Shown here: positions 2,925-46,699 of the stretch, piece after piece
Numbering within the stretch: the stretch's first letter is position 1
Layout: every line of letters begins with the position of its first letter
Notes under the pieces: generated by a model
Databases searched by the model: none
The model's input: only the letters and a program-made list of their open reading frames with translations
What the model was told of the DNA's origin: nothing
Program-made: the position numbers and the translations under genes
Assembly: GCA_009773185.1 (NCBI GenBank)
Contig: WPIF01000007.1
Location: 48,206-112,205, forward strand
DNA from: Nitrospirota bacterium
GTDB taxonomy: Bacteria > Nitrospirota > Thermodesulfovibrionia > Thermodesulfovibrionales > UBA1546
DNA length: 64,000 nucleotides
Direction: 5' to 3'

Positions 2925-4145
2925 ATGGGCATTAGATTTTTCACTGCAGGCGAGTCACATGGCAAAGCCCTGACAGGAATCCTAGATGGGGTTCCTTCAG
3001 GGCTTTTTATTTCTGCAGATGATATAGACAAAGACCTCAGAAGACGACAGGGCGGTTACGGCCGGGGCGGCCGGATGAAGATTGAAACAGACCATGCTGA
3101 AATCCTCTCTGGTGTCCGCCGGGGCAAAACCATAGGCTCTCCAATAACAATCCTCATCGAAAATAAAGACTGGGCTAACTGGCAGAATATTATGAATCCT
3201 GAGTTAAATCCGAAATCCGAAATCCGAAATCCGAAATCAATTATTACCCGGCCAAGGCCGGGGCATGCTGACCTTGCAGGAGCTATCAAATATGATACCC
3301 ATGACATAAGAAATATCCTCGAACGGTCGAGCGCAAGAGAGACAGCGATGCGTGTGGCGCTTGGCGCAGTAGCAAAAAAGTTTCTCTCTGATTTTAATGT
3401 GATGATTGGGAGCTATGTAATAGAGATAGGCAAAATACAAGTTTCAAGTTTCAAGTTTCAAGTTTCAAGTTCAGAAAAAGAACTTTTAGAGATTTTCAAA
3501 AAAGCTGAAAAATCGCTGGTAAGGTGTCCTGACAGGAATGCTTCACAAAAAATGGTTAAATTAATTGACAGGGCAATAAAAGAGGGAAATTCTCTCGGAG
3601 GAATTTTTGAGGTGTTTGTAACAGGGCTACCTGTTGGTCTTGGGAGTCACACCCAATGGGACAGGCGGCTTGATGGCAGGCTAGCACAGGCATTGATGTC
3701 TATTCAGGCAATAAAAGGCGTTGAGATTGGCATGGGCTTTGAAATGGGCAGGAGATTTGGCTCAGAGGTTATGGATGAAATTTTTTATAGCCAGGAGCCA
3801 GGAGCCAGGAGCCAGAAGTCAGGAGGTTTCTTCCGCAAGACTAATAATGCAGGCGGAATTGAAGGGGGCATGACAAATGGAATGCCGGTAATCCTCAGGG
3901 CAGTGATGAAGCCGATACCCACATTAAGAAAATCTCTTGGTTCAGTTGATATAAATACAAAGAAGCCTTTCAAGGCAGCCTATGAGCGCTCTGATGTATG
4001 TGCTGTGCCGGCTGCAGGAGTTGTAGGCGAGGCAATGGCAGCGCTTGTTATTGCAGATGCATTTCTGGAAAAATTCGGCGGTGACAGCATGGCAGAAGTT
4101 AATAGGAATTATAATTCCTATCTTAAATATATTTCAAAATTCTGA
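2925..4145 (+). CDS. aroC: Chorismate synthase with three short-repeat-derived insertions
   Basis: MGIRFFTAGESHGKALTGILDGVPSG, TRPRPGHADLAGAIKYD, RSSARETAMRVALGA. Confidence 0.95.
   Translation: MGIRFFTAGESHGKALTGILDGVPSGLFISADDIDKDLRRRQGGYGRGGRMKIETDHAEILSGVRRGKTIGSPITILIENKDWANWQNIMNPELNPKSEIRNPKSIITRPRPGHADLAGAIKYDTHDIRNILERSSARETAMRVALGAVAKKFLSDFNVMIGSYVIEIGKIQVSSFKFQVSSSEKELLEIFKKAEKSLVRCPDRNASQKMVKLIDRAIKEGNSLGGIFEVFVTGLPVGLGSHTQWDRRLDGRLAQALMSIQAIKGVEIGMGFEMGRRFGSEVMDEIFYSQEPGARSQKSGGFFRKTNNAGGIEGGMTNGMPVILRAVMKPIPTLRKSLGSVDINTKKPFKAAYERSDVCAVPAAGVVGEAMAALVIADAFLEKFGGDSMAEVNRNYNSYLKYISKF
3204..3238 (+). repeat. 7-nt tandem repeat (aaatccg)n inside aroC
   Basis: aaatccg x4 plus aaatc, read directly. 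Confidence 0.95.
3437..3473 (+). repeat. 7-nt tandem repeat (caagttt)n inside aroC
   Basis: caagttt x4 plus caagttc, read directly. Confidence 0.95.
3789..3826 (+). repeat. 7-nt tandem repeat (agccagg)n inside aroC
   Basis: agccagg x3, agccaga, agtcagg. Confidence 0.95.
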
Positions 4146-4188: not shown

Positions 4189-4308
4189 TTAAGGCATGGC
4201 ATTATTTTTTCACTCATTCTCGCTGCGCTCCGAGGATTTTGCCTCTTTATTTTTAAAAATTTAATGGGCTTCGGCAAAATAAACCGCTCAAATACTATAT
4301 CCAGCTTG
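4189..4308 (-). repeat. Structured intergenic element, copy 1 (degenerate outer stem)
   Basis: Minus-strand core GAGCGGTTTATTTTGCCG ... AGAGGCAAAATCCTCGGAGCGCAGCGAGAATGAG. Confidence 0.85.
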
Positions 4309-4354
4309 TAATATTTAGATGCAATCTTGAAAAGCATTCATGTAAAATATCGTC

Positions 4355-8058: not shown

Positions 8059-8191
8059 AAAAGGCAGGCATAATATCCTCGCTCATTCTCGGGCTGACGC
8101 CCTCCGAGGTATTTTGCCTCTTTGTCTTCAATATGGATTACTGTAGGACTATCGGCAAAATAAAACCGCTCGAATACTATGCCTGCCTTTT
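8059..8191 (-). repeat. Structured intergenic element, copy 3
   Basis: Outer arms AAAAGGCAGGCATAGTATTC / GGATATTATGCCTGCCTTTT around conserved core. Confidence 0.92.
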
Positions 8192-23837: not shown

Positions 23838-25825
<1,988 letters not shown>

Positions 25826-46515: not shown

Positions 46516-46699
46516 AGGAAGGACATGGCATTTGAGCGGTTTTATTTTGCCGATAGTCCACCCCCCTACGTCCCCCCTCGGTAAGGTGGGAATTTAAGGG
46601 GGGTAGAGGCAAAATACCTCTTCGCCCCGGCGAATCCGCCTGAGGCGGAGGAGTCATTTGTCGAAGCCCGAGAATGAGCGGAAATGCTATGTCCTTCCT
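46516..46699 (+). repeat. Structured intergenic element, copy 5, with two nested inserts
   Basis: Outer arms AGGAAGGACATGGCATTT / AAATGCTATGTCCTTCCT around conserved core. Confidence 0.92.

Follow-up and report, generated by a model that had tools for sequence, protein, structure and literature searches.

Reports of heptanucleotide repeats in bacteria go back decades, and to our knowledge no mechanism for their formation has been established. In-frame insertion of repeats within genes is known from the Rickettsia palindromic elements and similar sequences, which represent one family of palindromic insertions. As with these elements, in-frame repeat peptides are tolerated in housekeeping proteins of the lineage studied here; the heptads, however, are non-palindromic and replace one another, and it is the GC-rich hairpins in some AroC loops that come closer to the Rickettsia type.

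Among prokaryotic repeats with units of 5-11 nt the heptanucleotides are the most abundant class according to Mrazek 2007, as summarised in PMC4679880, and a 7-nt polymerase contact was proposed by the same author to explain them (PMC4679880). The tracts described below are long simple sequence repeats in this sense, with units in the 5-11 nt range and lengths greater than expected by chance in the host genome (G000). They share with the long simple sequence repeats outlined in PMC4679880 and PMC4692102 a preference for heptanucleotides, a patchy distribution between lineages and few units per tract, but here two thirds of the tracts are intragenic and units are swapped at fixed sites between flanks that are ~95% identical. 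The TAACTGA repeats of marine Beggiatoaceae and some cyanobacteria, for which post-transcriptional control has been proposed, are likewise tandem 7-mers, typically in two to six copies and sporadic across phyla, as far as PMC4679880 describes them. They consist of one dominant unit and are mainly intergenic, near start codons, whereas the tracts here are built of dozens of units and are mostly coding (50 of 73 lie inside ORFs), so that we do not assign them to that class. The likeness to cyanobacterial heptanucleotide repeats in general would be one of kind only. Geobacter metallireducens carries heptanucleotide arrays of GGGACCG (49 copies) and MTYCTGA, the latter fitting TCAGAAG-type units found here; in the part of PMC2700814 that deals with them the arrays are read as regulatory elements, and replacement at orthologous sites is not reported there. 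The GGGNATC repeats of Xanthomonas and Nostoc are also heptameric, with a preference for about four units, but as presented in PMC4692102 they form G-quadruplexes, are mainly intergenic and are under-represented in genes, and most units here are not G-rich. Unit-for-unit replacement at fixed, frame-constrained loops of housekeeping enzymes is not described in the passages on heptanucleotides in these sources, nor did it turn up in our literature searches; those linking heptads to chorismate synthase or to Nitrospirae gave nothing specific. Bacterial heptanucleotide repeats are already known; a form of them in which units are swapped at such fixed loops appears to be new.

Period-7 tracts in aroC and its relatives

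The window (the whole stretch of DNA that was analysed, 64 kb, representing contig 38 of G000) contains an ORF whose product matched chorismate synthase 1q1l by phmmer (E=4e-145), and the best 28 Foldseek matches of its AlphaFold2 model were all chorismate synthases. By both sequence and fold the protein is a chorismate synthase (AroC), an enzyme that we take to be essential in this organism. Repeats were detected with Tandem Repeats Finder (TRF) and an exact-run scan, and were scored at lag 7. The first-pass annotation had claimed three 7-nt tracts in aroC; TRF and exact runs agreed on all three, shifting the boundaries by at most 1-2 bases (Table 1). The AGCCAGG tract of loop 3 is perfect at 3789-3815 and degenerate onward to about 3825. 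It had also been claimed that the frame is kept in each tract, and indeed aroC remains one ORF of 406 aa.

Table 1. Window positions of aroC and of strong period-7 tracts
Feature	Position	Strand	Encoded peptide or location	Basis
aroC, chorismate synthase, 406 aa, three heptad-bearing loops	2925..4145	+		ORF list, phmmer, AlphaFold2 model
Loop 1 tract, (AAATCCG)4.7, 100%	3206..3238	+	LNPKSEIRNPKS, residues 94-105	TRF, exact-run scan
Loop 2 tract, (CAAGTTT)4.9, 100%	3438..3471	+	QVSSFKFQVSSS, residues 172-183	TRF, exact-run scan
Loop 3 tract, (AGCCAGG)3.9	3789..3825	+	SQEPGARSQKSGG, residues 289-301	TRF 90%
Further strong period-7 tract, (AGCTCTC)3.6	25277..25301	-	inside tgt (24704-25813, -)	exact run

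The lag-7 scores of the aroC tracts (26, 27 and 21) exceeded those of codon shuffles (n=2000), which peaked at 11, and also those of a synonymous-only codon shuffle in which the protein was kept (maximum 19). When periods 2-30 were scanned over the 64 kb, comparable runs were seen only for period 7 and its multiple 14. The host of the AGCTCTC tract was identified by Pfam (TGT, E=1e-166). With three tracts at a score of at least 20, aroC has the most strong tracts per gene in the sample (P about 5e-4, corrected for 1057 genes), and it stands out even in the repeat-rich G000. A different, dispersed repeat of ~100-170 bp (TATTTGAGCGGTTTTATTTTGCCG ... CCTCGGAG...GAGAATGAG) occurred dozens of times in the family genomes that were examined, with two clear copies in the window at 8153-8176 (-) and 46529-46552 (+), another locus at L030:19433-19604 and a diverged copy, recognised by eye, at about 4205-4310, just downstream of aroC.

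Alignment of 48 AroC relatives, with a lag-7 score of at least 10 as the tract call, gave 4, 24 and 18 tracts in loops 1, 2 and 3, respectively, and none in the remaining aroC gene, which offers four times more DNA. Practically no tracts were found in the 48 AroCs at lags other than 7 and its multiples. The units vary from species to species and include AAATCCG, GAGGGCA and ATGCGGA in loop 1, CAAGTTT, AGTCAGA, TTCACGG, AAGTTCA and AATTTCA in loop 2, and AGCCAGG, TTCACGG, AAAATTC, AGTCAGA and CCGGAAG in loop 3. The host genome is a member of the Nitrospirota, very probably of the order Thermodesulfovibrionales; the nearest named relatives of its AroC are from uncultured Nitrospirota, some of them labelled Thermodesulfovibrionales or Thermodesulfovibrio; the AroCs of Paenibacillus, Aquificota, Magnetobacterium and several Thermodesulfovibrio lack loop heptads and have mostly shorter loops. 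The lengths of perfect AroC runs were bimodal, at 17-24 nt and 31-36 nt, with about 16 of 39 in the longer group and a maximum of 38. In about eight to ten AroCs a GC-rich hairpin element, e.g. CCCCCCTTTAGTAAAGGGGGG, occupies one loop in place of a heptad; such hairpin mini-elements, found in the AroC loops of L067, L069, L070, L072, L075, L080, L082 and L095, encode PPLxKGG-type peptides.

The loops themselves are variable. Residues 91-110, 170-193 and 289-301 have zero invariant columns in the 48-sequence alignment, and pLDDT values below 50 in the AlphaFold2 model are confined to residues 99-110 and 296-298, in loops 1 and 3. Both observations agree with the earlier idea that variable loops tolerate the heptads, and the alignment suggests that AroC supplies three such loops. 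The further idea that the tracts add peptides to the enzyme holds in part. Compared with Aquifex AroC (1q1l), loop 1 is ~4 aa and loop 3 ~8 aa longer, whereas loop 2 is about equal. Loop 2 has 35 aa in the host, about 33 aa in most relatives whether or not a heptad is recognisable, and 28 aa in Paenibacillus and Aquificota, and this nearly constant length with or without heptads rules out, for loop 2, a simple insertion into an otherwise unchanged enzyme.

Period-7 tracts across the genome

Of the 2.79 Mb of G000 (44 contigs), 1.07 Mb (39%) was scanned, together with samples from the congener G001 (0.39 Mb), the complete single-contig genome G026 (0.40 Mb) and G071 of the same order (0.40 Mb); N stretches at L049:1-2873 (the whole of contig 37) and L053:1-5000 (the start of contig 42) were left out of the counts. 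Strong period-7 tracts numbered 52 in G000 (about 50 per Mb), 32 in G001 and 17 in G026, as compared to 0-11 for other non-multiple periods across the three genomes. In G000 itself these other periods gave no more than 7 strong tracts each (0-7), and the proposal of a process that generates 7-mers is thereby strengthened. No strong period-7 tract was found in the 0.40 Mb sample of G071 (genus g14, 1.8 Mb). At a looser threshold G000 yielded 73 tracts, of which 50 lay within ORFs, 16 were intergenic and 7 fell at the edge of an ORF.

Going by Pfam-based names, the host genes include those for Tgt, UvrA, a FabF-type ketoacyl synthase, a MiaB-type methylthiotransferase, a CoaE-RibF fusion, HypF, Ddl, a MurD-type ligase, a MurG-type glycosyltransferase, a D-alanyl-D-alanine carboxypeptidase, MoeA, a UvrD-type helicase, SelA, TolB and Dxs. 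The densest stretch examined was the ddl-mur cluster (L030:11000-19800), with six heptad tracts in less than 9 kb. At L011:8513-9682 dephospho-CoA kinase and riboflavin kinase domains are joined in one ORF, with a GGTATCA tract in the riboflavin kinase part. Within coding tracts a stop triplet occurs in 8 of 50 sense units, as compared to 31 of 50 antisense units.

Exchange of units at orthologous sites

Around the aroC tracts G000 and its congener G001 are 93-98% identical, but none of the three loops has the same unit in both. Loop 1 has AAATCCG in G000 and G003 and GAGGGCA in G001; loop 2 has CAAGTTT in G000 and AGTCAGA in G001 and G003; in loop 3 the G001 tract is AGCCATC-like and degenerate, with the same length as the AGCCAGG tract of G000 (35 and 35). 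With G003 as outgroup the changes can be polarised: since G003 shares the loop 1 unit with G000 and the loop 2 unit with G001, G001 replaced loop 1 and G000 loop 2. Judged from these alignments, the AAATCCG of loop 1 is inherited, and the CAAGTTT of loop 2 replaces AGTCAGA in G000. The three tracts had been interpreted in the first-pass annotation as independent expansions inserted into aroC, an interpretation that found no support in this form, as the loops are old, order-wide repeat sites at which the tract is replaced over time and the loop 1 unit is inherited. Close relatives with the same segments but without repeat structure would have counted against the first-pass annotation; the close relatives in fact carry other heptads there.

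A similar exchange was seen elsewhere. At 24 orthologous tract sites (mean flank identity 94.5%) we found the same unit, allowing at most one change, in 9, another heptad in 6, one of which is two changes away, and no heptad at threshold in 9, some of which hold period-8 tracts or hairpins. In ddl, AGCGTTG in one of the two genomes corresponds to AGCTGAT in the other with site lengths of 50 and 50, the uvrA swap has site lengths of 47 and 47, and swaps were also observed in mur-region genes, tolB and others. From 15 nt outward of the tracts the flanks diverge at background level (4-7%). Within 15 nt the divergence was 11% at changed and 5% at unchanged tracts, possibly owing to alignment or relaxed constraint, and we gave this weak excess no weight as a signature of mutagenic repair.

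Length comparisons point to selection on the coding tracts. The comparison was confined to internal coding sites; three lying at the start or end of a gene were excluded, as was one at the very N-terminus of a peptidase gene. All 16 length differences were multiples of 3, and among the eight nonzero ones a single difference was a multiple of 7. That lengths change by threes in spite of a seven-base unit shows that the tracts are translated and that the frame is under selection.

Two further sites show other arrangements. In G000 the AAATCCG tract of a miaB-type gene (L010:8367-8392) adjoins a hairpin, and the G001 orthologue (L239/L235) has at this place a period-8 GGGTCAAA repeat in four copies; among the short periods of G001, 8 ranks second in frequency. 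In dxs (L060:5400-5436) AGCTGAT and GGCTGAT alternate as a 14-nt higher-order repeat, which is identical in G000 and G001.

Possible origins of the tracts

The units are reused. Same-unit pairs numbered 38, 31 and 12 against 3.3, 1.0 and 0.4 expected from genome 7-mers (12-33 times), AGTCAGA in three copies was present in 16 of 101 relatives with no matches for the reversed control, and 22 of 73 units contained TCAG/CTGA against 5.5 expected, AGCT-rich units being over-represented as well. We consider it fairly probable that the tracts stem from a heptanucleotide process that acts throughout the lineage and turns over whole tracts, with selection as a filter for frame, for freedom from stops and for what the loops tolerate. 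The tracts seen are perfect runs of about 4-5 seven-base units, and the units come from a limited set that recurs; different species have them at the same positions, but the unit is swapped while the flanks stay ~95% identical to within ~15 nt. One swap would replace most of the tract in one or few events and not in single-unit steps. Most likely a swap begins with a break or gap in an old tract, and a candidate polymerase would resynthesise this tract while repeatedly misaligning by seven bases, which would echo the polymerase contact suggested by Mrazek (cited in PMC4679880). Within genes the survivors are mostly tracts in stop-free orientations and of frame-keeping lengths, and tracts for this reason collect in variable loops. 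The pattern can be explained without any benefit to the enzyme.

We infer whole-tract replacement from the peak of perfect lengths at 31-36 nt together with the equal site lengths after several swaps. The bimodal lengths favour the birth of whole tracts at about 4-5 units over stepwise growth without an upper limit, although the 31-36 nt peak may also reflect selection on loop length, since it is clearest in AroC. The ~5% difference between G000 and G001 at the compared flanks leaves time for many small steps, and the block mechanism of the swaps is a putative one.

Ordinary slippage is a serious possibility, even if we think it will probably not suffice. Short chance duplications at a 7-nt offset, favoured by polymerase geometry, would then grow and shrink unit by unit, point mutations would erode old tracts before new ones formed nearby, and the loops would just permit survival. 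The reported abundance of heptanucleotides in the 5-11 nt class and the proposed 7-nt contact, as given in PMC4679880, speak for slippage, and so do the common short runs of 17-20 nt and degenerate tracts, the two-unit alternation in dxs and at L060:9094-9124, and near-unit matches such as CCCTGCT/CTCTCTG and AGGTGTC/AGCTGTC, which resemble drift. On the other hand, tract lengths in the AroC loops do not fall off steadily, one-unit steps would break the frame of housekeeping genes, unrelated units interchange at equal length with intact flanks (ddl, uvrA and aroC loop 3), and same-unit pairs exceed the expectation from genome 7-mers 12-33 times.

An unlikely source is a dispersed mini-element of REP/MITE type, copied from site to site, possibly by Y1 transposases, with the GC-rich loop hairpins belonging to the same class. 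Hairpins such as CCCCCCTTTAGTAAAGGGGGG do occupy the same AroC loops in other species, one perfect unit recurs at many sites, and a 26-nt imperfect stretch is common to two unrelated genes (L005:14859-14893 and L008:8624-8654). Still, the order of variant units is no more shared between non-orthologous tracts than in shuffled ones, which leaves copying of ready-made blocks between sites unsupported: an initial count of 21 shared-tract pairs against 4-9 was inflated by orthologous duplicates, and in a within-genome, in-register permutation 12-13 were seen against 8-11 expected, which is not significant. No conserved tract end was seen, Y1_Tnp was present in 24 of 28 genomes with a tract-bearing AroC and in 15 of 20 without (p=0.46), and it was not found in tract-bearing G009. 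Within the 39% of G000 that was scanned we found no second copy of CAAGTTT that could have served as donor for the replaced loop 2. The heptad tracts are non-palindromic and show no association with PF01797, which speaks against REP/RAYT elements. Ku-dependent end joining was likewise set aside, with Ku in 4 of 28 genomes with tracts and in 6 of 20 without; no Ku was found in G000, G001 or G005, nor in most of the other genomes that bear tracts.

Even less probable, in our view, is homologous recombination between strains, in which each site would have a pool of tract alleles and short-patch exchange would produce the differences between G000 and G001. Patch exchange would give sharp edges and equal lengths, and could account for the raised divergence within 15 nt of changed tracts, but beyond 15 nt the flanks show no donor signal. 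Recombination moreover creates no new units, so a generator would still be needed. We give a similarly low chance to a dedicated, telomerase-like polymerase or reverse transcriptase that would write tracts of ~32-35 nt de novo, also over old ones, at fixed permissive sites; if it exists, such a repeat-writing activity would mean a continual re-invention of loops in essential enzymes.

It is highly unlikely that the tracts are functional DNA or RNA signals (regulator sites or post-transcriptional control) or contingency loci for phase variation. The MTYCTGA arrays of G. metallireducens are annotated as predicted regulator sites in the relevant part of PMC2700814, the TCAGAAG-type units here fit this consensus on the other strand, and TAACTGA arrays lie upstream of start codons in the Beggiatoaceae described in PMC4679880; here, however, the unit changes or vanishes at orthologous sites, and the genes that contain two thirds of the tracts are unrelated in function. 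Phase variation was rejected because every compared coding length difference (16 of 16) keeps the frame, the opposite of switching, and the hosts are housekeeping enzymes. Most genomes here are metagenome assemblies, but an assembly artefact is practically inconceivable: heptads recur in the same three loops of AroC across many genomes that were assembled independently, the single-contig G026 among them, and the tracts, at ~35 nt, are much shorter than ordinary sequencing reads and keep the frame.

For the lineage-wide process that we favour, the different units at orthologous sites between ~95% identical flanks mean that births and replacements can be polarised and dated. Why the unit is seven and how it is made thereby become questions that can be tested by comparing closely related genomes. 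For the organisms themselves, the heptads supply housekeeping enzymes, among them AroC, Ddl, MurD, Dxs and UvrA, with new peptide loops that stay in frame.
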